Positions 38,250 to 62,414 of a DNA stretch of 64,000 nt are shown piece after piece. The notes beneath the pieces were generated by a model. It saw only the letters and a program-made list of their open reading frames with translations. It did no database searches and had not been told where the DNA came from. The DNA lies in the NCBI RefSeq assembly GCF_009192995.1, contig NZ_SDID01000001.1, positions 124,001 to 188,000 of the forward strand, in the 5' to 3' direction. How positions within the stretch are numbered: the stretch's first letter is position 1; every line of letters begins with the position of its first letter. A program made the translations under genes and the position numbers. The DNA is from Sulfurimonas indica. Its GTDB lineage: Bacteria > Campylobacterota > Campylobacteria > Campylobacterales > Sulfurimonadaceae.

Positions 38250-38258
38250 TTAGCTTCC

Positions 38259-38291
38259 TATATGGGTATATTTTGAAATTATACCCATATA
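38259..38291 (-). terminator. perfect 12-bp inverted repeat between DUF302 and helicase-like genes
   Basis: TATATGGGTATA and its exact complement are separated by 9 nt in the 51-bp gap. It lies 10 bp after the DUF302 stop and 9 bp before the next start, so it may terminate or attenuate, or be an operator; no long T-run follows. Confidence 0.5.
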
Positions 38292-38300
38292 TGCCATAAA

Positions 38301-39212: not shown

Positions 39213-39223
39213 ATCTGTTATCC

Positions 39224-39661
39224 TTATGGTTTAATATAAATCCAACCTGCTTTTACACTCTCTAAAAGTTCAACTACACCAGCTGTCACAATTACAGAGC
39301 CCTCTATCAGGTCTTCTTCTTTTACTTTGAGTGTTCGCATCGTATTACCACAGGCAACGAACTCTACATCGTACTGCATTAAAGCATCTACACGTATAGC
39401 AGTTGTCCGGTTACGTTTGTACAGCAGTGCAAGACCTTTGGAATAAGCAACGATTTTCATCTCTACTTTTTCCGGTCCGTAAAACTTCAGTACATTGTTT
39501 GCGACACTCAGTATATGATCAAGAGCATGCGGAGAATCTTCTGTGACAGAAAAGACAATTTGTCTTGGATTGTCAATCGAAGGCTTTGGGTCTGCATACT
39601 CTGTATCTGCAAATAAGAGAATACAAAAGCTAAGTAAAATGAGTGTAAATTTTTTCATCAA
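39224..39661 (-). CDS. exported DsrE-family protein
   Basis: A signal peptide (1-18) precedes a DsrE/DsrF-like fold: I-V-F-S-V-T-E-D-S-P-H-A-L-D-H-I, V-E-M-K-I-V-A-Y-S-K-G-L and V-E-F-V-A-C-G-N-T-M. Cys105 (approximate) in A-C-G-N-T-M sits where DsrE proteins carry the sulfur-binding Cys. It probably handles a persulfide or binds a small sulfur species in the periplasm, which fits its location among sox genes; this is inference. It is 8 bp from the thioredoxin gene and 11 bp from the DUF302 gene. Confidence 0.8.
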   Translation of the reverse strand: MMKKFTLILLSFCILLFADTEYADPKPSIDNPRQIVFSVTEDSPHALDHILSVANNVLKFYGPEKVEMKIVAYSKGLALLYKRNRTTAIRVDALMQYDVEFVACGNTMRTLKVKEEDLIEGSVIVTAGVVELLESVKAGWIYIKP

Positions 39662-39669
39662 ATGTGCCT

Positions 39670-40044
39670 TTATTTTATATTTTTTGTCAAATCTTTAAAA
39701 TCTTGAATGTTCCAAGAACCCGGAATCTTCTTAATGATTTGTTGATCCGAATCTACAAAGAAAAATGTTGGTGTAAAGTAAACATGAATACCCAGTGGCA
39801 GCTCATCAAAATCAAGATTGAGCTTTACAGGAATAAAACGTTTCTCTAACCATGTAGACATCTCTTTGTTATCAAAAACTTCTCTTTGCATATCCTTACA
39901 ATAATGACAATCACTTCGTACCACATCAATCATAATGAGTTTAGCGTTTTTTTTCTGTAGTTTCAGAGCCTCTTCGTATGTATGAAACTCCAATGCAAAC
40001 AGTGATATAAATCCGCTTATTAAAATTAAAAATATTTTATTCAC
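39670..40044 (-). CDS. periplasmic thioredoxin-like protein (SoxW type)
   Basis: At 124 aa with a short signal peptide (1-18) and one thioredoxin domain with active site C-H-Y-C (about 48-51) and the cis-Pro loop T-P-T-F. The C-x-x-C with His/Tyr inside resembles SoxW and DUF953-like reductases, which keep SoxY's C-terminal Cys reduced. The likely electron donor is the DsbD protein encoded at 49260. It overlaps the metallo-beta-lactamase gene by 8 bp. Confidence 0.8.
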   Translation of the reverse strand: MNKIFLILISGFISLFALEFHTYEEALKLQKKNAKLIMIDVVRSDCHYCKDMQREVFDNKEMSTWLEKRFIPVKLNLDFDELPLGIHVYFTPTFFFVDSDQQIIKKIPGSWNIQDFKDLTKNIK

Positions 40045-40942
40045 TTTCCCACTCCAATGTTCTATAAACTGTCTCTACATTCTGTCTGTGAATAGAGTCA
40101 TAAAAAGGAACCCCTTTATACTCCGGCATAACAACTGCATTAACAACATCACCGATATCCTCACCGTCATCGAGCAGTTTTTTTACCTGCTTGCGCAACG
40201 TAACAAGATAATTATAAGTAAAATCAATGGCCTTTTTGTTTACCATTTCACCATGCCCACCAATCACATAAACAACATCCAAAGAGCGTAGCTCTTTCAA
40301 AGCTTTTATCCAGCCGTTAATGTCCCCGTCACGCAGAGATGGCAACCTCTCATTAAAAACTAAATCACCTGCAAAAATAACTTTTTTACTTGGAATGTAA
40401 ACGTAAAGATCATTCTCTGTATGAGCTTTATTATTTACACTTTTTATAAAAACTTTTTCTCCATCAATCTTTAGAACTTTTTCATTATCTACAAATAGAC
40501 CTGGATATTCTTGTGTAGTACCTTGAAATGCTTCTGCAGAGATTCTTCTTTGCATTCTTGTTTGTTCTTCTTTTGCTAACTCTTTAAAACTGCTTGGTCC
40601 TATAATAGTAACATTTTGTTTCTTGTAAAAACTGTTACCAAGCCAATGATCATCATGAATATGTGTATTTATAACGTAAGAGATAGGAAGATTTTTTATT
40701 TTTTGCATTTTTTTATATGCTTGCTCGGCATATTGGTATGTGGGACCACTATCTATCACAAGATAGCTGCTCCCCATAGTAACAAAACATGAATTAACCA
40801 TGTTTCCATTGTTATGCTTATCCATCACTTCTGGTAGCCCGAAGAAGCAGAACACATCACTGCTAACCTCTTTGGGCTGAAGTTTGTAATCAAAGGAGAG
40901 AAGAGAATTTACAAGTACAATACTTAACAAAAATGACTTCAA
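40037..40942 (-). CDS. periplasmic metallo-beta-lactamase-fold hydrolase (SoxH-like)
   Basis: A signal peptide (1-16) precedes a complete MBL fold. The zinc motif is H-I-H-D-D-H-W-L-G-N (about 94-103), further ligands are N-K-A-H-T (about 172) and F-A-G-D (about 191), and G-G-H-G-E (about 231) ends the site. SoxH proteins of this kind lie in many sox clusters but are not needed for thiosulfate oxidation in vitro; glyoxalase- or persulfide-dioxygenase-like activity is possible. It lies 28 bp after the porin gene, in the same direction. Confidence 0.82.
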   Translation of the reverse strand: MKSFLLSIVLVNSLLSFDYKLQPKEVSSDVFCFFGLPEVMDKHNNGNMVNSCFVTMGSSYLVIDSGPTYQYAEQAYKKMQKIKNLPISYVINTHIHDDHWLGNSFYKKQNVTIIGPSSFKELAKEEQTRMQRRISAEAFQGTTQEYPGLFVDNEKVLKIDGEKVFIKSVNNKAHTENDLYVYIPSKKVIFAGDLVFNERLPSLRDGDINGWIKALKELRSLDVVYVIGGHGEMVNKKAIDFTYNYLVTLRKQVKKLLDDGEDIGDVVNAVVMPEYKGVPFYDSIHRQNVETVYRTLEWESE

Positions 40943-40970
40943 AGCATAACTCCTTTTTTATCACACTATT

Positions 40971-42185
40971 TTAGAATTTAAACTGGTACTGAGCGATAAA
41001 TGCATCGTCTCTATAACCACTTAAACCACTCCATTTACTTGTAGCATCCTCAGTTGCACCTGAACCACTTGCTAGGATATAGTTAAATACAACTTTATGT
41101 TGATTTCTTGCACGTTTTGCTTTACGAGAGAAATCAGAGTATGGTTGTGATAGGAAAAGGTTGAAACCTAAATACGTATTTCCTAATTTAGTAGTATTTG
41201 CTGTTGCACCTTTTTGTGCAGAACCTTGAAGATGTTTTGCAACCAACTCTAGTTTTGGTGTTACGAAATATCCTGCAGTTGCAGTATACACTGTTTCATC
41301 ATAATCTTTTGTACCTAAAATATTTTTAGCATCAAAAAATTCAGCTTTTAAACTTAACTTACCAAGATTTGAATCAATACCAACATTGATATTTGAATAA
41401 TCTTCCCCATTTGTAGTTAATGCATCATTACCATCTGCATTTTCACTTACTGCATATGAAGCTTCCATATGAAACTTTTCTGTCCAGTCAAACATACCAC
41501 GGACTGCATAAGAGTTTCCACCAAACTCTGTACTGTTCACGGCAGAACTTCTGTTTGCTTGGTTAGCTATCATAATATCATAACCAAAACCTTTCCATGG
41601 ACGCTCATGCCCCATTTCAAAACCATCTACCTTATTCCCTGCATAACCAATACCACGACCAGAGATCATCAAACCAGTATTTCTCTCTAATGCTAAAGAT
41701 TTATCAAAACCACGCTCAGCAATATCGAGGTTCCATCCTGGCATTGTAAAACTCATACCATTTGGCATTTTAATAAGACCGGCTTTAATAACAAAAGCAG
41801 GATCAGCTACATAAGAGATAAATGCATCTTTAATCATTTTAGGCATTGCTGCACCATCTGTTGCATCACCACCATTAGCACTACTATGATCTTGATTAAA
41901 ATCTAAAAAGACTTTACCACGAACTTTACCGGCTACATATTTCCAACCAAGGCGAATACGCTGTGCACGAAATGCAATATCAGAGCTTGCTTTATCTACA
42001 GAACCAGCTTCTTTGATTTGCATACCTTTTCCACCAACAGCCTCAAGCTGAGCAAAACCAAAGAAAGTCAGTTTTGTATCAACATCACCTACTTTTTTCT
42101 TCATTGTATAACCAGCTTCTGCTGAAGTCGCCATTAAAAGTACTGCTGCAGCACCTGCAGCTAATTTAACCATATTCTTTTTCAT
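40971..42185 (-). CDS. outer-membrane porin
   Basis: At 404 aa with a signal peptide (1-24, ending S-A-E-A) and amphipathic beta strands throughout. It ends in F-I-A-Q-Y-Q-F-K-F with a terminal Phe, the usual outer-membrane insertion signal. The opening L-T-F-F-G-F-A-Q-L-E-A and the A-F-I-S-Y strand resemble phosphate-selective-porin-like (OprO/P) barrels. Its place straight after soxB suggests a role in thiosulfate or sulfate passage, which is untested. A large palindrome overlaps its promoter region. Confidence 0.85.
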   Translation of the reverse strand: MKKNMVKLAAGAAAVLLMATSAEAGYTMKKKVGDVDTKLTFFGFAQLEAVGGKGMQIKEAGSVDKASSDIAFRAQRIRLGWKYVAGKVRGKVFLDFNQDHSSANGGDATDGAAMPKMIKDAFISYVADPAFVIKAGLIKMPNGMSFTMPGWNLDIAERGFDKSLALERNTGLMISGRGIGYAGNKVDGFEMGHERPWKGFGYDIMIANQANRSSAVNSTEFGGNSYAVRGMFDWTEKFHMEASYAVSENADGNDALTTNGEDYSNINVGIDSNLGKLSLKAEFFDAKNILGTKDYDETVYTATAGYFVTPKLELVAKHLQGSAQKGATANTTKLGNTYLGFNLFLSQPYSDFSRKAKRARNQHKVVFNYILASGSGATEDATSKWSGLSGYRDDAFIAQYQFKF

Positions 42186-42209
42186 TATAAACCCTTATTT
42201 TTAAATAAA

Positions 42210-42252
42210 GAATATGTTATAATTAAACCGCTTGTTTATGTATAACATATTC
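42210..42252. promoter_or_regulatory. 12-bp inverted repeat at the porin promoter
   Basis: GAATATGTTATA and its exact complement are separated by 19 nt, between the soxB terminator and the porin start. On the minus strand the porin-proximal arm contains TATAAC, a possible -10. It looks like an operator for a dimeric regulator. Confidence 0.5.
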
Positions 42253-42259
42253 AACAAAA

Positions 42260-42281
42260 GATGGCAGCCCCAACTGCCATC
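42260..42281 (-). terminator. terminator of the soxXYZAB operon
   Basis: An 8-bp GC-rich perfect stem (GATGGCAG) with a 6-nt loop lies 9 bp after soxB, followed on the minus strand by TTTTGTTG. Confidence 0.8.
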
Positions 42282-42290
42282 TCCCAATCC

Positions 42291-44054
42291 TTAACAGCCC
42301 ATAGAGCCTTTTGTAGGACAACCACAACTGTAATCAAGCAGAGTAACATTACCTTTATTACTCACATCAACCACTTTTTCTCTTTTGATATAGTCACGAA
42401 CTACATCGTATACAGGACGGATCTTATCTTTTTGCAGATTCTCACCTGCTTTTTGTAAGTTTCCACCCCATGATGAGACAACATATGTTTTATTTAAGTC
42501 TATCGGCTTACCTCCAATTTTAAGATTTGATATACGTTCACCGGCTTTGTTCGATACAGCGATACTGTATGTTACACCACCCAAGCGACTCATATCCCCA
42601 CCTTGTTGGTAGAGCGGATTTTCATTAAATACATTATCTGCGATATCTTCAAGCAGTTGTGCTATTTTTTCACCTTTTAACTCAAATGTATAAACATTCG
42701 GGTATGTGATGCCACACATCTCATAAACATTATCCATCAGTATGTCATCACCTGCAAGAACTGTTGTTCCCCATCTGTACCCTGGAGTAAAAGAGACATC
42801 ACACTGCATCTCATCCATAATCGCATCATTGATGAGTTGGTCAAATGTTGAAAAGAATGTATCACGTTTGTAAAGCATACCTTTTGTCTGACCAAGTACT
42901 TCATTGAACTCTTTTGCAAATGGAGCATACAGTTCATGAACAAGTTTCTCGCCTTCAGGATCAGCCGGAATAAGATTTGAAGCGATTGGAATGAGTTTAT
43001 ACTCATACCCTTTTACTTTTCCATCTTTTGCATCAACATCCAAACGTCCGATGTACTTACCATGACTACCAGCAATAACGATTACCGTATCATTGATAGT
43101 TATTGGTTGTGGTGAAGGGTCATGTGTATGTCCACTCAAGATAAAGTCAATACCATTTACCTGACGAGCAACCTCTTGGTCAACACTGAATCCATCATGT
43201 GAAAGAACAACAACACAGTCCACTTTTTTCTCATTTCTAAGTTCATCAACATACTCTTGAAGCGTTTCAAGTCTTAGACCAAAACTCCAACCCTCTGTAA
43301 ACTCTTTCGGGTTTGCTGTTGAAGTAAATGGGAATGACTGACCGATGATACCAATCTTGGCACCACCTCTCTCTTCGATAGTATATGGCTCAAAAATAAG
43401 CTCTTCATACTCATCTGCAAATGGATCATCACCCACAATATTTTGAGAGATAAACTTCGCATCTAACATATCAATGAGCTCTTTAACTCTCTCTTTACCG
43501 TAAGTAAACTCCCAGTGACCTACCATTACATCAATACCAAGATAGTTCTGTGCTTTTACAATCGCTTCACCACCGGTTTTTAGTGCTACACCAGTTCCCT
43601 GCCATGTATCACCAGAATCTAAGAAAAGTACATTCTCAGCTCCACGCTCTTTAATAATATGGTTCGTCAAAGTTTTCATATGAGCGATACCACCCATTTT
43701 TCCAAACTTTTTCGCAAGCTCTTCAAAATTGATGTATGTATCAAAATATGCATCAAGTGAACTAGGCTCTAGTCCATAATGCTTTGCAAATGCTTCACCA
43801 CATAAAAATCCCGGTGTTCCAACCAGATTTGGAGCAGAGATCAGTGTTGATGGCTCTCTCCAGTAAAGTGGCTTGATATGTGCATGCAAGTCACACATAT
43901 GAAGCAGTGTAAAATTCCCTTTTGCTTTAAAATCATATATATCTTTTAAAGATATCTGTGCAGGAGATTTCACTCCGGTATTACAGCCACCGGCTGCCAT
44001 ACCGAGACCAAAAATCGCTGCAATATGCATAAAGTCTCTTCTTGAAATTTCCAT
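42291..44054 (-). CDS. soxB: thiosulfohydrolase SoxB
   Basis: At 587 aa it has a twin-arginine-type start (S-R-R-D-F-M, residues 4-9) and a lipobox-like G-G-C, then a 5'-nucleotidase-like metallophosphoesterase domain. L-H-M-C-D-L-H-A-H holds the first metal ligands, followed by F-L-D-S-G-D-T-W-Q-G, G-H-W-E-F-T-Y-G and L-S-G-H-T-H-D-P. SoxB hydrolyses the sulfate group off SoxY-bound cysteine S-sulfonate in the periplasm using two Mn ions. A Cys-rich C-G-C-P-T...G-C tail ends the protein. It is the last gene of the core sox operon. Confidence 0.96.
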   Translation of the reverse strand: MEISRRDFMHIAAIFGLGMAAGGCNTGVKSPAQISLKDIYDFKAKGNFTLLHMCDLHAHIKPLYWREPSTLISAPNLVGTPGFLCGEAFAKHYGLEPSSLDAYFDTYINFEELAKKFGKMGGIAHMKTLTNHIIKERGAENVLFLDSGDTWQGTGVALKTGGEAIVKAQNYLGIDVMVGHWEFTYGKERVKELIDMLDAKFISQNIVGDDPFADEYEELIFEPYTIEERGGAKIGIIGQSFPFTSTANPKEFTEGWSFGLRLETLQEYVDELRNEKKVDCVVVLSHDGFSVDQEVARQVNGIDFILSGHTHDPSPQPITINDTVIVIAGSHGKYIGRLDVDAKDGKVKGYEYKLIPIASNLIPADPEGEKLVHELYAPFAKEFNEVLGQTKGMLYKRDTFFSTFDQLINDAIMDEMQCDVSFTPGYRWGTTVLAGDDILMDNVYEMCGITYPNVYTFELKGEKIAQLLEDIADNVFNENPLYQQGGDMSRLGGVTYSIAVSNKAGERISNLKIGGKPIDLNKTYVVSSWGGNLQKAGENLQKDKIRPVYDVVRDYIKREKVVDVSNKGNVTLLDYSCGCPTKGSMGC

Positions 44055-44064
44055 TATAGACCTT

Positions 44065-44835
44065 TTATCTTTTTAAACCAGGAATAGCAATCTCACTACC
44101 CTTAGCCTTATCAGTAAGATAAATTTCAAGTGCTACCATCTCTTTTGAACCTAAAGGAATCACTTTAAGAAGTGCATTTTTCATACATCCTTGAAAACGG
44201 CGTTGAAAAGTTCTCAGTGATGACTTTGTCATTCTGTATGCAGGCCACGTTGCAGCAGCTTTTACACCTTTTGAGCTCAAATCTGGAAGAGGTTGTGTTC
44301 TTAAAACTCTTCCGATTACATCAGGAGAGTGACAAGAGTTACATGAAAGACCACGTCCACCACGTTTTGTCATAAATGTTTTCTCACCAAGAGCATACAT
44401 CTCTTTCATTTGAGGGTTTGCATTTACATCAATGTTGATTGGCTCATCATTTGCAATAGATTTCACATATGCGACCATTGCGAACATATTTCCACTTTTA
44501 AGTTTGAGTGGTTTATGCCCACCGTCTGCCATCATTGCTTGTAGCACTTGATCAAGTCCTACAACCATATCAAACTTTTTAATATAACGCGGGAAACCTG
44601 CGATATATGAAGGAAGTTCATCTTCACTTACACCAAGATATTTTGCAAGACCTTCGTCTCCACCCATATAACTTAGTAACTCTTCACCATCTGCAATCAT
44701 AATATCTGCTGGATTGTTTTCTGACATTTCAGCATACATTGCACGGTCTGCATCGCTCATTGCAAATTGTTCACCACCAAATGATAATGAAGCAAGCATT
44801 GCAACTGATAGAGCTATTTTAATACCTGTTTTCAT
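44065..44835 (-). CDS. soxA: sox cytochrome c subunit SoxA (monohaem)
   Basis: The start is ATG 44835 after AAAAGGA; a longer reading to 44925 would run into soxZ and bury the signal peptide. The mature protein has one C-N-S-C-H haem site (165-169) and Cys217 in F-Q-G-C-M, the haem ligand that becomes a persulfide in SoxA. The first haem of di-haem SoxA proteins is absent. With SoxX it joins thiosulfate to the SoxY cysteine. It lies 4 bp after soxZ. Confidence 0.95.
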   Translation of the reverse strand: MKTGIKIALSVAMLASLSFGGEQFAMSDADRAMYAEMSENNPADIMIADGEELLSYMGGDEGLAKYLGVSEDELPSYIAGFPRYIKKFDMVVGLDQVLQAMMADGGHKPLKLKSGNMFAMVAYVKSIANDEPINIDVNANPQMKEMYALGEKTFMTKRGGRGLSCNSCHSPDVIGRVLRTQPLPDLSSKGVKAAATWPAYRMTKSSLRTFQRRFQGCMKNALLKVIPLGSKEMVALEIYLTDKAKGSEIAIPGLKR

Positions 44836-44839
44836 CTGA

Positions 44840-45178
44840 TTATCCTTTTGGTTTAATCTTTTTACTTTTCTCGTGTACTTCACCAGTGTTGTCTGTATAT
44901 GTAACTGTAAGTTTCCCTTTACCATTTACTTTCATATAGATAGTAAATACCGGATTTACAGATAATGATTCCCAAACTGTCATCGTCGTGATATCTTTAC
45001 CGTTATAGTTAAACTTCACACTGTTGATGTATTTTGCAGGGATGATTTTTTTCGTTTTCTTATCTTTCCCCATACCTGTATCCATTGGGTGCATTACCAT
45101 GAAACTTACTTTTACAATTTCACCGTCTTTATATCTTTTTGGTTTGATCTTAATCAGTGATTTTCTTTCTTCTGCCAT
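44840..45178 (-). CDS. soxZ: SoxZ, sulfur-carrier complex subunit
   Basis: I place the start at the second ATG (45178), which is 8 nt from AGAGGA; the first ATG at 45184 is too close to that site. The 112-aa protein has no signal peptide, as is usual because SoxZ is exported bound to SoxY. The conserved V-M-H-P-M-D-T-G motif is near residues 29-36, and the immunoglobulin-like strands follow. It pairs with SoxY encoded just upstream. Confidence 0.95.
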   Translation of the reverse strand: MAEERKSLIKIKPKRYKDGEIVKVSFMVMHPMDTGMGKDKKTKKIIPAKYINSVKFNYNGKDITTMTVWESLSVNPVFTIYMKVNGKGKLTVTYTDNTGEVHEKSKKIKPKG

Positions 45179-45227
45179 TTTCATATCCTCTTTATTTATT
45201 TTTTATCTTGTTTCTCTGATTGAAATA

Positions 45228-45698
45228 TCAACCACATCCACCAATAGTTACTTTTACACTTTGAGAAGCGATTAAAAACTCACCATTGCTAAGTTCTACA
45301 AGACCAACAACCTCTTGCGTTCCACCAAGTTTGATACGCGTTGAGAAGTAAGCTTTTCCATTTGCAGGTGTAAGATTCACATCAATACAACGTGCATTTG
45401 AATTTTTTGTAGAGAGTACGTGGATTGCTTTTACATAGTCTGAATCTGTCATAGGAGAATCAACTTCAACAGTTACAGGAACAACTGCACCATTCTCAGC
45501 GATTTCTGGAACTTTAAGTTTTACTTTGCTTGATTTAACAGGAGCTTTCCCACCTGTAATAGCATCAACAGCTACTTTATAGTCCATCTTGTTTGGACTT
45601 ACCGGTTTTGGCGCATCTGCTGCGAAACTCATAACAGGGATAACTGCACCTACAGCTGCCACTGAACCTATTTTTTTAAAAAAATCTCTTCTTTGCAT
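45228..45698 (-). CDS. soxY: SoxY, thiosulfate-carrier subunit
   Basis: At 156 aa with a twin-arginine signal (Q-R-R-D-F-F, residues 2-7) and a C-terminus ending I-G-G-C-G, where Cys155 carries the sulfur intermediates. The usual family end is G-G-C-G-G; here one final Gly is missing, as in some other Campylobacterota copies to my knowledge. SoxYZ presents the substrate to SoxXA and SoxB. It sits between soxX and soxZ. Confidence 0.95.
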   Translation of the reverse strand: MQRRDFFKKIGSVAAVGAVIPVMSFAADAPKPVSPNKMDYKVAVDAITGGKAPVKSSKVKLKVPEIAENGAVVPVTVEVDSPMTDSDYVKAIHVLSTKNSNARCIDVNLTPANGKAYFSTRIKLGGTQEVVGLVELSNGEFLIASQSVKVTIGGCG

Positions 45699-45717
45699 TG
45701 TTTACTTTCCTTTAGTC

Positions 45718-46272
45718 TTATTTTGGAGCTACGACAAATGACGTAATGTCACATATCTCTCTTGGAGTAAATAGCTTCGTTGTTAAATTGATAGTCATAT
45801 GTGTATCTGGATTGTCAATACGAGCATCGGCAATTTTTTGGAAAACAAACTGATAATCTCTTGCACCACTGTCGATGAAGTTCTCTTTATAGTCTGTTAA
45901 ATCAGGACCGATATTACCAGCACCACGTGCGCCTTCAATATTATGACAAGCTACACAGTTTCCATACTGTTTTGGTGGGATTTTATCGCCAGACATATAT
46001 GTTTTACCCGGTTTCATTTGTTTACGAGATAAACCTTTTGGAGGGTTTTTCTTCGCTTTTTTCCCATTTAGATTATTAAAGATATACTCACCTCTAGCAA
46101 TCGCAGCCGGATCACTTGTTATACAACCTGCTGGCATTGTAAATACCTTTGGTGGTGCCAACAGATCTTTTTCTATCATCTTACTTGCATCTGGATGCTC
46201 TATAACTTTGCTGTAATCTGTAGCAAATAGTGAAGCTCCTACAAGCAATGACATCATTACTGTTTTGTTCAT
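45718..46272 (-). CDS. soxX: sox cytochrome c subunit SoxX
   Basis: A signal peptide (1-18) precedes a class I cytochrome c with haem motif C-V-A-C-H (106-110) and a G-P-D-L-T-D-Y segment after it. The C-terminal I-C-D-I-T-S-F-V contains the extra Cys found in several SoxX proteins. It partners SoxA in forming the SoxY-thiosulfate adduct and passes electrons onward. It is first in soxXYZAB, with a strong ribosome-binding site (GGAGG, 7 nt before ATG) that is partly enclosed in an inverted repeat. Confidence 0.94.
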   Translation of the reverse strand: MNKTVMMSLLVGASLFATDYSKVIEHPDASKMIEKDLLAPPKVFTMPAGCITSDPAAIARGEYIFNNLNGKKAKKNPPKGLSRKQMKPGKTYMSGDKIPPKQYGNCVACHNIEGARGAGNIGPDLTDYKENFIDSGARDYQFVFQKIADARIDNPDTHMTINLTTKLFTPREICDITSFVVAPK

Positions 46273-46273
46273 T

Positions 46274-46304
46274 CTTGTTCCTCCTATATATTTTCAGGAA
46301 CAAG
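46274..46304 (-). promoter_or_regulatory. inverted repeat covering the soxX ribosome-binding site
   Basis: CTTGTTCCT and AGGAACAAG pair perfectly across a 13-nt loop. In soxX mRNA the second arm includes part of the GGAGG site and ends one base before ATG, so it could block translation; as DNA it could equally be an operator. Confidence 0.55.
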
Positions 46305-46313
46305 TTTAACTAC

Positions 46314-46335
46314 TGAATGTAAAATGAATGTAAAA
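46314..46335 (-). promoter_or_regulatory. perfect 11-bp tandem repeat upstream of soxX
   Basis: TTTTACATTCA (minus strand) occurs twice head to tail. Two half-sites at an 11-bp period are the standard target of OmpR/PhoB-family regulators, and such a regulator is encoded 1.2 kb upstream on the same strand. Confidence 0.6.
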
Positions 46336-46351
46336 TCAGATTTTTTTATAG

Positions 46352-47509
46352 TTATTTATTTGAAGTATGTGGAAAGATATAGAGAAACAGGCTTCCCTGC
46401 TTTAAGTTTGACTCGATTTTAAGTTCAATATTCTCACTGTTAATGATGGATTTTACAATATTTAGCCCTATTCCAAAACCACCTTTTGATGTATCTTCAC
46501 GATAATAGCGAGAAAATATCTTCTCAACTTTCTCAATTCCTACACCATAATCTTTAAAAGAGAGATGACATCTCTCATCTTTCATATAGAGTGCTATATC
46601 AATTTCTGAGTTTTCATACGAATACTTAATCGCATTGGAGATATTATTATCAATAAGACGCTGCAGTTGTTTTTCATTCATATGTACACTGCCACAATTG
46701 GAGATATCTGCATTTATCTTAATGTTTTTCATTGCCGCAACTTCAGAAAAGTACTCTACCCTCTCATTTAAGAACTTAGCAATATCAACATCTTTTTTTT
46801 CATGTTCAAGTCTCTCATGCTTGATGAGATAGTCCATATCATTATAGATATTTGAGAGTACTTTTGCAGCTGCCTTCATTCTCTGCATATATTTATTTGG
46901 TTCATTTTTACGATTATAGAGATCTATGTTAACGTTGATAATAGAGAGTGGTGTATTAATCTCATGCATCGAGTCTTTTATGAAATTATCAAGCTGCTTG
47001 TTCATTTTTTGAAATGGTTTGGCAAAGGTCTTAAGAAAGTAAACACTCAAGATAAATACCAAAATAACTATGCTAAATAAAATAAGAAGTACTTTTTCAT
47101 AAACAGAAGCATACGAAATCGTATTATGTACGACAAGATAACTTGCACCGAAATATCTCTCTTTTGGAAGCTTTACAACCAAATAGGCATCGTTACCATC
47201 CAAATAGTAACCATTTTTAAAATACTTTACAGGATGTTCTATCAAAGTAAAAATTGCCTGAAATTTCTCATCATAAAGACCTGATTCAAAAGTCTTAAAT
47301 CGGGGATACTCAAAAAATTCGTCATTTTGGTCATACGCTTGCATCGCTTTAATAAGCAGCAGAGACTTCTCTTTTAAAAGCAGTTCATTTTGAATGGCAT
47401 GAATATTTTTCATATAGACCATATAGTAAAAAAGCGGCGTGAGCAGTATTATACTAATAAGTGCCGAATAGATAAGTGCATATTTTGTAGAGTACTGATT
47501 ATCTTTCAA
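46352..47509 (-). CDS. sensor histidine kinase next to the sox operon
   Basis: Membrane segments at about 11-33 and 139-159 enclose a 105-residue periplasmic sensor. The HisKA box is D-S-M-H-E-I-N-T-P-L-S-I with His182; the HATPase has N-N-I-S-N-A-I-K-Y-S-Y and G-G-F-G-I-G-L. All catalytic motifs are present. The gene overlaps the response regulator by 11 bp and ends 79 bp before soxX on the same strand. Sensing thiosulfate or a periplasmic redox state is a reasonable guess, not shown. Confidence 0.92.
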   Translation of the reverse strand: MKDNQYSTKYALIYSALISIILLTPLFYYMVYMKNIHAIQNELLLKEKSLLLIKAMQAYDQNDEFFEYPRFKTFESGLYDEKFQAIFTLIEHPVKYFKNGYYLDGNDAYLVVKLPKERYFGASYLVVHNTISYASVYEKVLLILFSIVILVFILSVYFLKTFAKPFQKMNKQLDNFIKDSMHEINTPLSIINVNIDLYNRKNEPNKYMQRMKAAAKVLSNIYNDMDYLIKHERLEHEKKDVDIAKFLNERVEYFSEVAAMKNIKINADISNCGSVHMNEKQLQRLIDNNISNAIKYSYENSEIDIALYMKDERCHLSFKDYGVGIEKVEKIFSRYYREDTSKGGFGIGLNIVKSIINSENIELKIESNLKQGSLFLYIFPHTSNK

Positions 47510-48152
47510 TAATGTATCCTAAGCCACGTCTATTTTGTATGATATCATCCGGCAGTTTCTTTTTGAGATTGTTGAGCTGTACACGAATGGTTGCCGGTTC
47601 AACATACTCTCCCCACACCTCATCTTGAAACATCTGTGTTGATACTATGGAGTTTTTATTTTTGATGAGTACTTCTAGCAGCTCTTTTTCTGTCTTTCGA
47701 AGCACTATCTCTTCACCATCCTGCGTGAGCTTGCTCTTTTTAAGGTCATACACTACACCAGAGCCAAGTTCTACTATCGAGCCATCATTTTGTAAATGCG
47801 ATGCCAAAGCCTGATCTATTCGAAGTTCTAACTCTTCAAGATCAAAAGGTTTTCTGATATAGTCACAACAGCCACGCTTGTAGCCCTCTTTAAGATCTTC
47901 CATCTCTGTCATCGATGTTAAAAAGATTGCAGGAATTTTTATGCCGTCTTCTCTAAGCTTGCGTAAAAACTCAAAACCGTTCATCGAAGGTACATTGACA
48001 TCTAGAAGTAAAATATCATAGCTTTTATCATATACGGCATCATACGCTTCTGCTCCGTCCATATAGCCATCGACTTCATATCCGATATCATTCAAAAACT
48101 CTTCGATGCTGATTCGCAGTGAATATTCATCTTCTAAGAGCAGTACTTTCAT
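47499..48152 (-). CDS. OmpR-family response regulator
   Basis: At 217 aa with a receiver domain (acidic pair E-D near 7-8, phospho-acceptor Asp51 in L-L-L-D-V-N-V-P, Thr near 79, Lys in R-K-P-F-D) and a winged-helix DNA-binding domain (about 125-215) ending R-R-G-L-G-Y-I. Such regulators bind 11-bp direct repeats, which are present before soxX. It overlaps the Cache gene by 4 bp and the kinase gene by 11 bp. Confidence 0.94.
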   Translation of the reverse strand: MKVLLLEDEYSLRISIEEFLNDIGYEVDGYMDGAEAYDAVYDKSYDILLLDVNVPSMNGFEFLRKLREDGIKIPAIFLTSMTEMEDLKEGYKRGCCDYIRKPFDLEELELRIDQALASHLQNDGSIVELGSGVVYDLKKSKLTQDGEEIVLRKTEKELLEVLIKNKNSIVSTQMFQDEVWGEYVEPATIRVQLNNLKKKLPDDIIQNRRGLGYIIER

Positions 48153-49243
48153 TTTATCTTCCCATCTATTTTTTTTACTATTTTACGATTAAGCATCATC
48201 TGTATCAGCTCATCTTTGGAGTATTTGTCAAATTTTTCATAGGCCTCATCAAAAAAGACCTCTCTGTCCTCTTTATCTATAACATCCTGCAGATAGACAA
48301 GAGAAGATGCCGAATAGTTCTCATAGACATTGTTCTCATACCTCTGCTGTTTTACTATATCATACAAAGAGCTTCTTGTAATATTGATTAAAAAGGAGAT
48401 ATCATCTTCGGGATTTCTAAAGTAGTTAAGATAACGCTCTGGTAGAACAAACACAAAACCGCCAATGATCTTTCCATCACCATCACGCATATTTTCATAA
48501 AAGATATACTTCCCATCCTTATAAACAACACCACTGAGCTTTAACTCTTTAAAGTCAATCGTGTGTAGTGTTTGCAGATGCGCATAGTTATAGTTTCTGT
48601 TTGCCAGTATATACTTGTCAATACTAAGGTTTTGCATCATAAGCACTGCTGTATCTGTATGCTTTACATCTAGCAGTACATACAGGTCCACCCCGATAGA
48701 ACTAAAAAAATCGGTGATGGACTTAAAAAAGGAGATAGACTCTATAAAACCCAAAAAATTTCCCTCTTTATAAACAGGAACTGTTGCTTTAATGCCAAGT
48801 CTGCGCCCCACTTCTATAGAAGTACGTGGTGCTTTATGGGTATCAAAGTACTTTAGGTCTGTTCTATAATCTCCAATTGGCATACCTGCATAGATATCAT
48901 CCCAGCTTCTTGCAAAGATATTGAGCTCTTTTGTGATAACCTGCGTACGGATTCTAGAGCCTGTATTTTGTTGGATACTTTTGGCAATATCAGAGATGAT
49001 TTTATAGCCTAAATCTTCATCATCATTTTCCAGTGCATCAATTAAGCCTTTGTTTTTTGAGAGCATCAAAGCAATACGCAGATCTTCCATCTTGTGTGTT
49101 TTTAACTGACTCTCCAAAGTCAAACGCATCTGATCCATAATATGGTATATCTTCTGTTCTTTGACCTCATTTTTATAGTAATAGGTTGAGAGTAAAATAA
49201 TGACAATTAAAACAGAGAAGATAAGCACTATTTTCTTTAACAA
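48149..49243 (-). CDS. stand-alone double-Cache sensor protein
   Basis: An N-terminal membrane helix (about 4-22) is followed by a long periplasmic region (about 25-300) with Cache-like features: V-G-R-R-L-G-I-K-A-T-V-P-V-Y-K-E-G-N-F-L-G in the first half and K-L-S-G-V-V-Y-K-D-G-K-Y-I-F-Y at a matching place further on. No second membrane helix, HAMP, kinase or cyclase follows; the C-terminus (about 310-364) is charged helix. It probably acts as a ligand sensor for the kinase encoded downstream, being translationally coupled to that system. Confidence 0.78.
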   Translation of the reverse strand: MLKKIVLIFSVLIVIILLSTYYYKNEVKEQKIYHIMDQMRLTLESQLKTHKMEDLRIALMLSKNKGLIDALENDDEDLGYKIISDIAKSIQQNTGSRIRTQVITKELNIFARSWDDIYAGMPIGDYRTDLKYFDTHKAPRTSIEVGRRLGIKATVPVYKEGNFLGFIESISFFKSITDFFSSIGVDLYVLLDVKHTDTAVLMMQNLSIDKYILANRNYNYAHLQTLHTIDFKELKLSGVVYKDGKYIFYENMRDGDGKIIGGFVFVLPERYLNYFRNPEDDISFLINITRSSLYDIVKQQRYENNVYENYSASSLVYLQDVIDKEDREVFFDEAYEKFDKYSKDELIQMMLNRKIVKKIDGKIK

Positions 49244-49259
49244 ACTTTTTACTACCTCA

Positions 49260-51032
49260 TTAAAGATAATTTAGATGTTTTAAAAAAACATCCGGTTCGA
49301 CAAAACCAATAAGCGTTTTTGCCTTGATAACTTTTCCGTCTTTATCAAAAAAGATAAGAGCAGGTGGTCCAAAAACACCATATGCTTTTGAGAGCGCCTT
49401 CTCTTTTTCACCATTCTGTGTTACATCAGCACGAATCAGTACAAACTCACGCAACTTCTCCTCTACACGAGAATCTGCAAAAGTCACCTCTTCAAGTTCC
49501 TTACATGCACTGCACCAATCAGCTGCAAAATCCAGAAGTATCTTTTTACCTCTATTCTTCTCTAAAAGTCTATTGAGCTCATCCAAAGAAGTTACCCTTG
49601 TAAACTTGAGCGCTTCTTTTCTCTCTACTGTAGAGCTCATTGCAACACTTTTTACTTTTAAAAATCCAAGCGGTTGTGTCATACTTGGTGCACCTGCAAG
49701 TACTCCGATAAAGAGTGCAAGTGAATAAAGAAACATCAATAGTGCAACAGTGCGTTTAAAAATATGCCCCTCTTTATCAAATACACCAAGATAGAGTGCA
49801 AAACCAAGACCAAGCATTGCATAAAGCAATGTTGTTATATCTGATGATACAACTTTTTCAAGCATCCATACTGCAACACCGAGCATAAGCACACCAAAGA
49901 TAGCGTTGATCATTGTCATCCATGCGCCCGGTTTTGGCATAAATTTACCGGCACTCACCCCAACTAAAATAAGTGGTATACCCATACCAAGACTCATTGC
50001 AAAAAGAGCTGCTCCACCCAAGAGTGCATCACCTGTTTGACCAATATAGACTAAAGCACCTGCAAGTGGCGCTGCTACACAAGGCCCAACAATCAGAGCT
50101 GAGAAAAAGCCCATAATCGCAACACCAATAAATCCACTGCGATTTGAGTTTTGAGAAACACGCGATACAAGTACATCTGGAAGTTTTAGTTCATAAAAAC
50201 CGAACATAGAAAAAGCAAGTGCAACAAAAACAGCTGCAAAACTGTACACAACCCATGGTGTTTGTAATGCAGCTTGAAGATTTGAGCCAAAAAGCCCAGC
50301 AAAAACTCCCGCTATTGTATATGCTACTGCCATTGCAAGTACGTAAACAAGTGAAAGTCCAAACGCTTTTTTCGTTGTCAATCCCTCACCTTGAGAGATA
50401 ATAACACCGGAGATGATAGGAATCATAGGAAAAACACACGGTGTCAATGAAAGAAGCAGTCCAAAAATAAAAAATGTTGCAAGCACAACTAAAAAACCAC
50501 TAGATTTGATCGTATCTGCTATGAGGTCTGTTTCTGATTTATTTTGTAGACCCTGTTCACTCTCATTCTTTTGTGTTCCTGCAGGAGCCACAACTCCCTT
50601 ATTTGACAACTTTGCACTGTCAACTTGAAGTGTAAAAACCTTTTCACTGGGCTCATAACACAGACCCTGTTCTGAACATCCCTGATACTCGACTTTAACT
50701 TTAACATCCTGCATACCTGCAAGAGCTTTCTCTTTTTGAAGTGTGAGTACAAATTCAGGTGATTTCAGATAAACAGCATCACCCATATGTTCAACCGATT
50801 CCGGTGCAACTATCTTTTTAATCGAGATACCATTAGCTTCTAAAAGAGATACATTAAGTTTATCTTTGTAAAGATATATCTCCGGTGCTATCTCTATGCC
50901 AACGAGTATTTGCGACTTTTCATCCACTTTGGCATAGGGTTTAAATGCTTCATTTGGCATGAGAAAATCTGCTGCGTGAAGCGTGAAAAGAGTTGCTAAC
51001 AACAATGTCAACACTTTTGTAAATATCTTCAT
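49260..51032 (-). CDS. dsbD: thiol:disulfide interchange protein DsbD
   Basis: At 590 aa with three parts: a signal peptide and periplasmic alpha domain (C-S-E-Q-G-L-C, about 114-120), eight membrane helices (about 175-450) with L-T-P-C-V-F-P-M and V-G-P-C-V-A-A-P reactive cysteines, and a C-terminal thioredoxin domain with C-S-A-C (about 508-511). It carries electrons from cytoplasmic thioredoxin to the periplasm. Its position 16 bp before the Cache gene and upstream of sox suggests it supplies reductant to the SoxW-like thioredoxin and SoxY. Confidence 0.95.
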   Translation of the reverse strand: MKIFTKVLTLLLATLFTLHAADFLMPNEAFKPYAKVDEKSQILVGIEIAPEIYLYKDKLNVSLLEANGISIKKIVAPESVEHMGDAVYLKSPEFVLTLQKEKALAGMQDVKVKVEYQGCSEQGLCYEPSEKVFTLQVDSAKLSNKGVVAPAGTQKNESEQGLQNKSETDLIADTIKSSGFLVVLATFFIFGLLLSLTPCVFPMIPIISGVIISQGEGLTTKKAFGLSLVYVLAMAVAYTIAGVFAGLFGSNLQAALQTPWVVYSFAAVFVALAFSMFGFYELKLPDVLVSRVSQNSNRSGFIGVAIMGFFSALIVGPCVAAPLAGALVYIGQTGDALLGGAALFAMSLGMGIPLILVGVSAGKFMPKPGAWMTMINAIFGVLMLGVAVWMLEKVVSSDITTLLYAMLGLGFALYLGVFDKEGHIFKRTVALLMFLYSLALFIGVLAGAPSMTQPLGFLKVKSVAMSSTVERKEALKFTRVTSLDELNRLLEKNRGKKILLDFAADWCSACKELEEVTFADSRVEEKLREFVLIRADVTQNGEKEKALSKAYGVFGPPALIFFDKDGKVIKAKTLIGFVEPDVFLKHLNYL

Positions 51033-51101
51033 AGAATGACCTTTAGTAATTTTAAGTAAGAACTATACAATCTTTTTGTGTATATTTTGTGTAACTTGTA
51101 T

Positions 51102-51107
51102 TATAAT
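51102..51107 (+). promoter_or_regulatory. -10 element for the BFD-like gene
   Basis: A perfect TATAAT lies 26 bp before ATG 51134 in the divergent gap between dsbD and the small ferredoxin gene. Confidence 0.45.
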
Positions 51108-51133
51108 GTCAAAAAATAAAATAAGAGTAAATT

Positions 51134-51358
51134 ATGAATATAGATTTAGATACTGAGATATGCGTGTGTAATTCACTCACTATTAAAGATATAGCAGAGT
51201 GTATCAAACAAAATAATCTTTCAACGCTCCAGGAGGTCTTGGATAATACAGAGATGCCAATCGGTGACAAGTGTGAAGCGTGTCATGACGAAGGATATCA
51301 TAATGACGGGCTCAATATTCCAATGGTTCTTGCTATGGTCAAGAGTGGACGCGCTTAG
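51134..51358 (+). CDS. BFD-like [2Fe-2S] protein
   Basis: This 74-aa protein has Cys10, Cys12, Cys47 and Cys50 in the C-x-C...C-x-x-C spacing of bacterioferritin-associated-ferredoxin domains, which bind a [2Fe-2S] cluster. The helical segment between them (I-K-D-I-A-E-C-I-K) also fits. C-E-A-C-H at 47-51 looks like a haem site, but there is no signal peptide. It is divergent from dsbD and its last 20 bp overlap the convergent kinase gene. Confidence 0.8.
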   Translation: MNIDLDTEICVCNSLTIKDIAECIKQNNLSTLQEVLDNTEMPIGDKCEACHDEGYHNDGLNIPMVLAMVKSGRA

Positions 51359-53924
51359 GAACTTCAATTATAAATGTACTCTGGTTATCAGATGACTCAA
51401 CATCTATCTTACCGTTAAACTGTTTCTCAATTATCATTTTGGACATATACAGACCCAATCCTGTACCATTTTTTCCTTTGGTACTAAAATATGGTTCAAA
51501 AATTTTCTGGAAATTCTCTTTTTTAATACCACCTGCATTGTCACTGATCTTAATTATTATCTTATCTTCTTTACTCTCTATTTCTATGATTATGTATCTG
51601 TTTTTTGAGCTTCCTGTTTCATAGGCATCTATGGCATTGTTTAAAATGTTTAAAAAGACCTGTATCAGCTCATTTGCGTAAACATGCACTTTTATCTGCA
51701 TATTTCCCTGCAGTTCCAGTGATATCTCATCTTTTTTGAGTCTTGGTTCAATAAAACTGACACACTTCATAATAAGCTCACCGATTTGTATTTCAACGGC
51801 CTCTTTTGCCGGATGAAAGTAGGTTTTAAAATCATCAATAGTATTGGAGAGATATATTATGGAGTTACTTATCTCATCAAGTATCTTTAAAAGCTCCTCT
51901 TTTGTAATCTTTTCACCTATCATCTCTTTGAGCTGAATACTTGATATTTGCAGAGTGATTGTGTTAAGTGGTTGTCGCCACTGGTGTGCTATCATAGAGA
52001 TCATCTCCCCCATAACGGCCTGCTTGGACTGAATCGTTAAGATCTCATCTTTTTGTATCAGCTCCTCAATCTTCTCTTGTACAGTAGCCTCGAGCGATTC
52101 ATTAATCTCACGCAGCTCTTTTGTTTTTTCATAGACCTGTCTCTCAAGCTCTTTATTGAAGTTTTTAAGTTTACGTTGATAGTAGATCATGATAAGAACT
52201 ATAACACCCATGAAAAAAAGAGTTTTGAGTGCCAGAGAATAATCGATTGTTGTTTGATACCTGCTTATTCGCCAGGAGTTTCGAATCGATTCAATTTTCT
52301 CTTTTGAAATATGCTTGAGAGCTTTGTTGATGATGGAGTAAAGAGTCTTCTCATCTTTTTGTATACCGATACTTCCCTGTATTGGTCTATCTTTTGCCAA
52401 AAAACCACTTATTTTGAGTTTACCGTAACCATATTTGTCAATAAAATAATCAGCTTGTTCATCCAATGTAACAATTGCGTATGCCTTGTTATATAAAACA
52501 TCCCGTACCATCTTGTTCTTATCATACTCAACTTTTATACGTAAATATGGATAGAGGTATTTGAGATATGCTCTAAAAGAGTCCTTTTGAACTATTAGGA
52601 CCTTATCTTTTAGCAGTGTCGGGTCATCCACAAAAGAGCGTTCCAACTTACTCAAAAGAGCAAAACTTGTAGCACTGAATGGAGGTGTTACTTGGATAGT
52701 TGTAAACTCTTTGTTTGCCGTTGCGACAACCGAAAGCATCTTACATTTTTTATTTTGGAGATTCTCCATCAAATCTTTTTCAGAAGCAGATGCGACAGGA
52801 GTAAACTCAAGTGAGGTCAGATTTGAAATGATTGAAAATATATCTCCCATCTCTCCGGTAAGCTTGTCATTTTTAATCCCATCGAGTGGAAAAAGATCAT
52901 AGTTTATACAGATATCTATCTTTTTATTATTATTGATGTAGTTGAGCTCTTTATCGCTAAACTGTAGCGCAGCTGTATCTGTTTTTGGATGAAAGAGGTA
53001 ATCATCCAAGCTTTTTTCATTTTGTATATGATACTCTTTTAAAAAGAGCTCTTTTTGTTTTTTCAAAAAACTTCTGTCAATGGAACCAAGCTCATAGGTA
53101 TAGGGTAAAATTAGTTTTTGAACACCAAGGGCCTCTTTTTTTATACTCTCTTTTGAGAGTTTTATCTGATATTTTTTTTTGATAATATCAACCAACTCAT
53201 CTTTATGAGAGAGTGCATACTGCCACCCTTTTAATGAAGCATCACGAAAAGCTTTTGTTCGCCCGGGATGTTTTGTCGCTTCTTCTTTGGATGTAATGAG
53301 TTCAAGCTGTAAGATATAGAGATTATCATCACTTGGGTCAAGTACATTGTAGTGCACTCCCAGATCATCAAGTTTATAAAGCTCATTCGAGACAAAAGCG
53401 GTCATTGCATCAACTTTTCCCTGAGCAAAATCATCAACACTGTAACTGTGAGGAACAAGCTCTACATCATCAACACTGACACCATAACCACGCAGATAGA
53501 GACCAAAGTTGAGCATAAAATCATCTTTTGTTGTTGCCATAATCCGTTTAGTTACTAAATCCTTGGGAGATTTAATCTCCGGTTTTGCTACCAAAACCAA
53601 AGCAGCCCGTTTGAAGTACGATGAAAGCAGGACCAAAGATTTACCGCGCAGATACTCTAAAAGTGCCAAGGAGTTGTAGATGCCGTATGTTGCCTTGCCA
53701 CATAAAACATCATCTTCAATATCTATGCCATCTTCATATTCACGCAGCTCAACATCAAGCCCTACATCTTTATAAAACCCTTTCTCCTTCGCAGCTATAA
53801 AACCGGCAAACTCAAACTGATATTTCCAATGCAGTTGCAGTGAGACTTTTTGAAGCTCTTCCCTGTTATGATGATTGGCAAAAAGCGTTGTTACAAAAAG
53901 GGAAAGTAAAAGTAAAAATTTCAT
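51339..53924 (-). CDS. histidine kinase with two periplasmic binding-protein domains
   Basis: A signal peptide (1-16) is followed by an NMT1/THI5-like substrate-binding domain (about 25-250; W-K-Y-Q-F-E-F-A-G-F-I-A-A-K-E-K-G-F-Y), a second binding domain of SBP_bac_3 type (about 330-560), a membrane helix (about 575-593), a coiled coil, a HisKA box I-A-H-Q-W-R-Q-P-L-N (about 655) and a HATPase domain with N-N-A-I-D-A-Y and G-T-G-L-G-L-Y. It probably senses two small molecules at the periplasmic face. No response regulator is adjacent. Confidence 0.9.
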   Translation of the reverse strand: MKFLLLLSLFVTTLFANHHNREELQKVSLQLHWKYQFEFAGFIAAKEKGFYKDVGLDVELREYEDGIDIEDDVLCGKATYGIYNSLALLEYLRGKSLVLLSSYFKRAALVLVAKPEIKSPKDLVTKRIMATTKDDFMLNFGLYLRGYGVSVDDVELVPHSYSVDDFAQGKVDAMTAFVSNELYKLDDLGVHYNVLDPSDDNLYILQLELITSKEEATKHPGRTKAFRDASLKGWQYALSHKDELVDIIKKKYQIKLSKESIKKEALGVQKLILPYTYELGSIDRSFLKKQKELFLKEYHIQNEKSLDDYLFHPKTDTAALQFSDKELNYINNNKKIDICINYDLFPLDGIKNDKLTGEMGDIFSIISNLTSLEFTPVASASEKDLMENLQNKKCKMLSVVATANKEFTTIQVTPPFSATSFALLSKLERSFVDDPTLLKDKVLIVQKDSFRAYLKYLYPYLRIKVEYDKNKMVRDVLYNKAYAIVTLDEQADYFIDKYGYGKLKISGFLAKDRPIQGSIGIQKDEKTLYSIINKALKHISKEKIESIRNSWRISRYQTTIDYSLALKTLFFMGVIVLIMIYYQRKLKNFNKELERQVYEKTKELREINESLEATVQEKIEELIQKDEILTIQSKQAVMGEMISMIAHQWRQPLNTITLQISSIQLKEMIGEKITKEELLKILDEISNSIIYLSNTIDDFKTYFHPAKEAVEIQIGELIMKCVSFIEPRLKKDEISLELQGNMQIKVHVYANELIQVFLNILNNAIDAYETGSSKNRYIIIEIESKEDKIIIKISDNAGGIKKENFQKIFEPYFSTKGKNGTGLGLYMSKMIIEKQFNGKIDVESSDNQSTFIIEVPKRVHS

Positions 53925-53932
53925 TGAAAAAA

Positions 53933-61297: not shown

Positions 61298-61840
61298 ATG
61301 TTTACTCTCACAGATGAAGAAAAAAAAGAGCTCAAAGAGATAGCTAAGCTGGCACTTTATGAAGCGGTACTGCAAAATAAGAGACTCCAACTCGACACAA
61401 GCAAACTCCCTCAAAAATTCAAAGAACATCTTGGTGCTTTTGTCACACTTAATGAAAATGGACAACTTCGTGGCTGTATCGGGCGTTTTGAACCAGACCA
61501 ACCACTCTATGAGGTTATCATTGAGATGGCGATCTCTGCTTCACGCTACGACAACCGCTTTACACCCGTTACACCGGAGGAGTTGTCAAGCATTGACATT
61601 GAAATTTCAGTTTTAACGCCAAGGGTACGTGTCAATTCTGTTGATGATATTATTGTTGGTAAACATGGCATCTATATCTCCTATGGAGGCAGAAATGGTA
61701 CCTATCTACCACAGGTGGCTACTGATATGGGATGGGATAAGGAGCAGTTTGTTCGTAGTTGCTGTATAGAAAAAGCAGGAATACCACCCCAGCACTGCAA
61801 AGATGCAGAGCTTTATGTCTATGAGGCTATCGTCTTTTAG
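61298..61840 (+). CDS. amrA: AmmeMemoRadiSam system protein A (AMMECR1 domain)
   Basis: The start is ATG 61298, 5 nt after GGAGGG; an ATG at 61286 is itself part of that ribosome-binding region. The 180-aa protein has the AMMECR1 motifs L-R-G-C-I-G (core) and S-A-x-x-D-x-R-F near 85-92, plus P-Q-V-A-T-D-M-G-W. The family usually occurs with AmrB (Memo-like) and a radical-SAM protein; neither is adjacent. Its biochemical role is unknown. The stop overlaps the convergent DsrE-like stop in TTAG. Confidence 0.9.
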   Translation: MFTLTDEEKKELKEIAKLALYEAVLQNKRLQLDTSKLPQKFKEHLGAFVTLNENGQLRGCIGRFEPDQPLYEVIIEMAISASRYDNRFTPVTPEELSSIDIEISVLTPRVRVNSVDDIIVGKHGIYISYGGRNGTYLPQVATDMGWDKEQFVRSCCIEKAGIPPQHCKDAELYVYEAIVF

Positions 61841-62307
61841 TCTCTGACAGGTATATAGGCAAAACCTTCATTTTGCTTATCAATCAGACCGATTGTAGAG
61901 TTTGGAACGATTTTCACAAACTCTACTATGTCTTTCTTTTCTAGTTTATTTCTCTTCATAGCAGCACCACACATAATAAACTCAACCTCATATGTATCGC
62001 TCATAGAAGCTATTCTTTTTTTCAACTCTTTATAGTTTTGCACCAACTTTTTGTCATCTTTAAATAGTGTGCTTTTTATATCTTTTACAAAAAATCTGTA
62101 TGCACCGCCATGAATGACAACAGCTACTTCAAGCTCTTTTAGATTACTTTCATAATGGCTCTTATTGTAAGTAATACCTTTGAGTATATTTTTTTCAAAT
62201 TTAGCCATATTACTCGTAGTTAAATCATAGACAACTTTTGGATTTTCCTCATCGCCAAAGGCTGCACCAATAATAAGCACTAAAAATATCAATATTTTTT
62301 TCATCAA
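61837..62307 (-). CDS. second exported DsrE-like protein
   Basis: A signal peptide (1-18) precedes a DsrE-type fold: V-V-Y-D-L-T, V-A-V-V-I-H-G-G-A-Y-R-F-F and V-E-F-I-M-C-G-A-A-M. The Cys in M-C-G-A-A-M is at the same place as in the sox-linked copy at 39224, but the overall sequences are not close. It probably works on a periplasmic sulfur compound. It is a single gene, distant from the sox operon. Confidence 0.75.
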   Translation of the reverse strand: MMKKILIFLVLIIGAAFGDEENPKVVYDLTTSNMAKFEKNILKGITYNKSHYESNLKELEVAVVIHGGAYRFFVKDIKSTLFKDDKKLVQNYKELKKRIASMSDTYEVEFIMCGAAMKRNKLEKKDIVEFVKIVPNSTIGLIDKQNEGFAYIPVRD

Positions 62308-62414
62308 ACACTTCCTTAATAAAATTTAAAAAGTGTAGCATCTATTTGTAAAATAAATATAAAAGAAAAAAGTTATGAAGTATTTAAAGTGAGCCAAAAG
62401 GCTCACGCAAGGTT

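Follow-up and report, generated by a model that had tools for sequence, protein, structure and literature searches.

The published layout of the PHO box consists of two 11-nt units, each with seven conserved and four loose bases (PMC4415409), and head-to-tail binding by PhoB is established (PMC3348028). In Sulfurospirillum, the OmpR-type regulator PceP has been reported to activate transcription from repeats that overlap the -35 region (PMC7755780). Known regulators of sox genes are of other kinds, for example SoxR of Alphaproteobacteria (PMC10451225). The dominant sulfur oxidisers of vents and redoxclines include Sulfurimonas and Sulfurovum. A review calls metabolic regulation in Campylobacterota an enigma (PMC6682613).

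To this background we add a soxX upstream region from Sulfurimonas indica (GCF_009192995.1; genome 2.09 Mb). The DNA analysed comprises positions 124,001-188,000 of the forward strand of contig NZ_SDID01000001.1, a stretch of 64,000 nt hereafter called the window. On comparative grounds we consider it very likely that a tandem repeat before soxX is the site of the adjacently encoded regulator, which would activate soxXYZAB and linked genes on a sulfur signal; binding by this regulator, activation, the transcription start and the signal are the parts of this reading that we infer.

Architecture and conservation of the soxX upstream region

A minus-strand gap of 79 nt (46273-46351) separates the stop of a histidine-kinase gene (46352) from the soxX ATG (46272). 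Read along that strand it contains two copies of TTTTACATTCA, GTAGT, TAAACT, a pyrimidine-rich stretch and a purine-rich stretch with AGGAGG, followed by the soxX ATG (Table 1). An earlier note on this DNA had described a tandem repeat and a perfect 9-bp inverted repeat in the gap, the second arm lying over the ribosome-binding site, and the coordinates bear out both. A tandem 11-mer appeared in 1 of 50,000 dinucleotide shuffles of the gap, and the exact tandem, with zero mismatches, occurs a single time in the 2.09-Mb genome.

Table 1. Features of the sox region and of a second predicted target, with positions in the window
Feature	Position	Strand	Remark
Second copy of the promoter architecture, TTTTATATTTATTTTACAAATAGATGCTACACT	62332..62364	-	Matrix score 27.0; ATG 27 nt downstream
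DsrE-like protein, predicted second target	61837..62307	-	ATG probably at 62304
Separate dCache_3 sensor protein, probable input subunit	48149..49243	-	PF14827
OmpR/PhoB-family response regulator, proposed tandem-site binder	47499..48152	-	PF00072 and PF00486, both over cut-off
Sensor histidine kinase, HisKA and HATPase_c	46352..47509	-	Conserved beside sox
Upstream half-site TTTTACATTCA of predicted tandem operator	46325..46335	-	Kept in 79 of 81 soxX loci
Downstream half-site TTTTACATTCA	46314..46324	-	11 bp from the first, about one helical turn
Predicted -10 element TAAACT	46303..46308	-	Column conservation; 9 nt past second TTTACA
Inverted repeat arm 1, CTTGTTCCT	46296..46304	-	Overlaps last two -10 bases and discriminator; not conserved
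Predicted transcription start region	46294..46296	-	From distance to -10; leader about 22-24 nt
soxX ribosome-binding site AGGAGG	46280..46285	-	
Inverted repeat arm 2, AGGAACAAG	46274..46282	-	Overlaps 3' half of soxX ribosome-binding site
soxX, cytochrome c subunit	45718..46272	-	First in soxXYZAB
soxY	45228..45698	-	PF13501
soxZ	44840..45184	-	PF08770
soxA	44065..44925	-	PF21342; true start probably inside ORF
soxB	42291..44054	-	PF02872, PF00149

To investigate the conservation of these elements, soxX loci were gathered from a search of relatives of the window together with named genomes (Sulfurimonas, Sulfuricurvum, Sulfurovum, Nitratiruptor, Hydrogenimonas and Arcobacter records); no SoxX relatives were found in viral contigs. 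Across 81 soxX upstream regions, many of them from metagenome-assembled genomes and some pairs near-duplicates, at least 10 of the 12 positions of TTTACA-N5-TTTACA are kept in 79 and all 12 in 65, whereas shuffled and coding controls peak at 8 positions and rarely reach 10. Identity to the window is 97% in the half-site columns, 39% in the linker and 45-50% in the flanks, and the second half-site mostly lies 41-50 nt from the start codon. Conservation upstream of soxX in relatives had been proposed as a check on both repeats, and the tandem passes it. Judged from these comparisons, the tandem of TTTTACATTCA is a regulatory site conserved across sulfur-oxidising Campylobacterota. The region is AT-rich, as would suit a mere AT-rich promoter feature or a chance duplication; the rarity of the tandem among shuffles and its cross-genus conservation at near-fixed spacing leave that explanation with a negligible probability. 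Two loci (L053, L065) carry three tandem TTTTACA half-sites before soxX, with the same 11-bp period, rather than two.

The two exceptions differ in kind. L085 lacks the regulator, the kinase and the promoter: soxX comes after about 20 regulator codons (5943-6003), and no regulator above 35% identity is left. This looks like one deletion, which may be a genuine loss of control or an artefact of assembly. In L074, at a contig edge, the soxX ribosome-binding site is immediately preceded by the end of a group II intron (RF00029, 57 bits; 24-125), apparently inserted in the sox promoter region; no regulator exceeding 38% identity was found. Both cases are compatible with an operator, and neither is independent proof of one, since the first is a single event and the second lies at a contig edge. 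A separate locus (L244:3367-3450) has the sox promoter site after the kinase gene with soxX absent downstream within the locus, which suggests an insertion between promoter and soxX.

Downstream of the tandem, the T, A and final T of a TAnnnT motif are conserved, plus a G two bases earlier; one extra nucleotide separates the second half-site from this predicted -10 element in L062, L084, L087 and L096. The element is usually about 30 nt from the soxX start codon. Given its conserved position, the tandem ends 5 nt before it and spans approximately -39 to -18. Inspection revealed no recognisable -35 hexamer 16-18 nt from the -10 element, and promoter prediction listed no promoter in the gap; promoters of Campylobacterota often lack a -35 hexamer. 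The arrangement shares with PHO-box-like class II sites two direct repeats of 11-bp period, seven conserved and four loose bases, and a near-fixed position in place of the -35 element close to the -10, and the best reading of the tandem is therefore a predicted PhoB-like class II activator site.

Repression is also possible from sites that overlap -35, and the same regulator might act here as a repressor, keeping RNA polymerase off the promoter until a signal arrives. The position, spanning the -35 region and ending just short of the -10, would be able to block polymerase. We nevertheless regard repression as unlikely: the promoter has no recognisable -35 hexamer for unaided transcription (a point softened by how often the phylum does without one), and the geometry equals that of PhoB-type activation. 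In addition, PceP, whose sites likewise overlap -35, is reported to be an activator (PMC7755780). Because of the class II activator geometry and the PceP precedent, activation appears more likely than repression.

The inverted repeat gives a different picture. It consists of a perfect 9-bp stem with a 13-nt loop (RNA fold -19.5 kcal/mol, z = -4.33), and the earlier note had suggested that it might mask the ribosome-binding site as an RNA switch or act as an operator. A perfect stem over the ribosome-binding site, and a read-through transcript from the kinase gene that would contain the hairpin, speak for translational control of soxX. The stem, however, is nearly perfect in L046 and L056 and broken in most other loci; L044, L045 and L048 retain 5 of 9 pairs plus one G-U. 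When 14 close relatives were aligned, 75.0% of cells paired versus 75.1% in shuffles, with no compensatory change. Nine-bp inverted repeats with loops of 3-40 nt occurred in 1,402 of 50,000 dinucleotide shuffles of the gap (2.8%), and the window yielded no Rfam match. Furthermore, the transcription start predicted from the -10 element falls at the end of arm 1. Since arm 1 covers the last bases of the -10 and the discriminator, little or none of it would be included in a transcript from the soxX promoter, and both arms would be present only in the read-through transcript. The same check in relatives that the tandem passes thus fails for the inverted repeat, and its loss in sister species, the lack of covariation, the frequency among shuffles and the position of arm 1 at or before the predicted start lead us to reject a role as RNA switch or operator, which we rate as very improbable. 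The repeat looks like an incidental, chance feature of one lineage, in which the pyrimidine-rich discriminator would happen to complement the purine-rich ribosome-binding site.

As the hairpin layer is not supported, the two control layers on thiosulfate oxidation that the earlier note had considered new for this lineage become one. The novelty of the remaining layer agrees with what we found: the open-access papers searched describe no sox regulator for Campylobacterota, which is no proof because subscription papers were mostly outside the scope of the search.

The two-component genes beside sox

An OmpR/PhoB-type regulator had been placed immediately upstream of the gap. It is indeed present, but the gene adjoining the gap encodes the histidine kinase and the regulator lies one gene further. 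Its product has the architecture of the OmpR/PhoB family, a receiver domain followed by a winged-helix Trans_reg_C domain, and can be aligned over its whole length with 1kgs, the solved structure of a full-length DNA-binding response regulator. The phospho-acceptor Asp of its LLLDV motif is conserved in 60 regulator orthologues, and the adjacent HisKA/HATPase_c gene encodes the predicted phosphotransfer partner. A gene for a DsbD-like thiol-disulfide protein (49260-51032) ends 16 nt before the dCache sensor gene and probably shares a transcription unit with the genes of the sox regulators.

Almost every locus whose upstream sequence reaches far enough has the order dCache_3 sensor, OmpR-type regulator and histidine kinase before soxXYZAB. 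Within the genus, all 15 genomes that carry soxX have a dCache orthologue, compared with 1 of the 22 that lack soxX. This sole exception, the small genome G020, has soxZAB (soxB 98% identical) on a contig whose sequence starts just ahead of soxZ, so the absence of soxX is probably a matter of assembly. On another contig (C40; L236:1-260) unrelated sequence without the tandem site comes after the kinase gene, and no tandem site was found in the assembly, where soxX is likewise missing; the regulator genes and sox may therefore have parted in this genome. A search that started from the regulator (that of L061 as query) returned 30 loci, of which 28, the window included, carry the site after the kinase gene with scores of 28.8-45.1, some genomes overlapping the training set of the matrix described below.

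Linkage can mislead, as regulator genes beside a promoter can be co-conserved for other reasons. The site might be bound by a different, unlinked OmpR-family regulator, with the adjacent two-component system controlling other functions; OmpR-type regulators are numerous in genomes of this group, and similar tandem sites are used by related families. Three observations make this quite improbable. The first is the genus-wide co-occurrence of soxX and the dCache gene. Second, where the genes have moved apart (L075, L088 and L116), the tandem site is kept and an orthologue of the regulator is found elsewhere, at 54-64% identity. Third, the recognition-helix region is highly conserved in the 60 regulators, and only in L061 does RAQ replace RV[QH]; only in L061, too, are both half-sites TTTCACA in place of TTTTACA. 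This parallel change of regulator helix and promoter half-sites is suggestive as a single case, and a search for further L061-like regulators found none close enough for repeating the co-change test. The regulator encoded just upstream very probably docks at the tandem site, and the proposal that the tandem is its operator has gained strong support from the comparative evidence.

Further predicted targets

Loose tandem sites with 2-3 mismatches were no more frequent genome-wide than in a reversed control, so only matches to a matrix with a null were retained. The matrix was built from 67 unique soxX sites and gave 0 matches scoring at least 17 in 2 Mb of third-order Markov sequence. It identified a second copy of the promoter architecture in the window, before a DsrE-like gene whose orthologue in other species stands directly beside the dCache gene. 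Matrix sites also precede the DsrE-like gene in L120, L111, L115, L077, L112, L122, L105, L109, L101 and others; the DsrE orthologues in L173-L176 have no site. Other sites precede a SoxH-like metallo-hydrolase gene (L089, with weaker scores in L051, L052, L057 and L060) and, in L114, the dCache gene itself.

The soxCD locus shows no site in 3.3 kb. Sulfurovum indicum has more soxABXY1Z1 transcript in the presence of thiosulfate, and soxCDY2Z2 follows another pattern (PMC10045233); this result, which the lack of a site at soxCD fits, is consistent with the operator model and no test of it. In the window, genes for a SoxH-like hydrolase, a thioredoxin-like protein and a second DsrE-like protein (39224-40942) lie downstream of soxB and of a putative outer-membrane protein, and resemble the soxH-soxW-dsrE set reported as up on thiosulfate in Sulfurovum indicum.

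Other matches are less consistent. A site scoring 16.9 is associated with a rhodanese gene (C50:23138-23106), most genus orthologues of which show no site; one scoring 21.5 (C52:108888-108856) is separated by about 340 nt from the next ORF, which encodes a putative outer-membrane protein. Matches inside signal-peptide codons (around 39650 in the window, and C51:107203) were judged to be chance coding matches. Elsewhere, a weak site (L127:1501-1533; 16.9) precedes a rhodanese-like gene by 25 nt, and an ArsR-like regulator gene lies upstream on the opposite strand; rhodanese and DsrE-like genes are adjacent in several relatives.

A proposed sox switch and its relation to known systems

We propose that two head-to-tail monomers of the regulator would bind the tandem TTTTACA-N4 repeat. 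The promoter has a predicted -10 element and no recognisable -35; much like PhoB at pho boxes, the bound regulator would take the place of the -35 and bring in RNA polymerase. On detection of a signal by the dCache sensor protein and the histidine kinase, the phosphorylated regulator would switch on soxXYZAB and some linked genes (DsrE-like and SoxH-like). The signal is probably a reduced sulfur compound, thiosulfate for instance, which is a natural guess from the targets. We count against this model a review in which the electron-donor complexes of Sulfurimonas denitrificans are described as seemingly constitutive for the most part (PMC6682613).

More tentatively, and with less than even confidence, we raise the possibility of a phylum-wide three-part sulfur sensor, in which a separate dCache protein would signal to a histidine kinase and an OmpR-type regulator that set the expression of soxXYZAB and DsrE-like genes, with the DsrE-like protein perhaps itself carrying the sulfur signal. 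If true, this sensor would supply the regulator of thiosulfate oxidation that is missing for the dominant Campylobacterota of vents, whose donor genes have been described as mostly constitutive. A named regulator, a DNA site and a short target list make the regulation of thiosulfate oxidation in the phylum directly testable, and the matrix can be used to find further targets. The comparative data also remove the proposed RNA switch from consideration.

SoxR, an ArsR-type regulator of Alphaproteobacteria, resembles the predicted system in controlling sox genes and itself responds to sulfur compounds. It is, however, a one-component, sulfane-sulfur-sensing repressor, whereas the genes described here encode a two-component system of an unrelated family. 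Control by a SoxR-like protein was set aside as the regulator beside sox is OmpR-type, and inspection of the ORFs listed for positions 38000-54000 of the window revealed no ArsR-like product. RsrS-RsrR of Acidithiobacillus caldus likewise exerts two-component control over thiosulfate metabolism, but it belongs to another phylum and regulates the tetrathionate pathway rather than soxXYZAB. ThsS/ThsR of Shewanella is likewise a two-component system, one that senses thiosulfate; in the window, a separate dCache_3 protein would provide the input.

Closer likenesses are found in PceP/PceS and PhoB. PceP/PceS, which governs organohalide respiration in Sulfurospirillum, comes from the same phylum and family and activates a respiratory pathway from direct repeats over the -35; its site is CTATW-N17-CTATW as opposed to TTTACA-N5-TTTACA, and its inducer is tetrachloroethene. 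The PHO box and PhoB of E. coli share with the sox site the 11-nt direct repeats of seven plus four bases, the position in place of the -35 near the -10 and an OmpR/PhoB-family regulator. The PHO-box half-site, in contrast, is CTGTCAT rather than TTTTACA, and the sox system differs from the Pho regulon in targeting sulfur oxidation and in having a separate dCache sensor protein in its regulator operon. With this half-site, and with sox, DsrE-like and SoxH-like genes as targets, the system was not assigned to the Pho regulon of PhoB itself. The sox switch would thus be a known kind of regulatory system with a broad reach.
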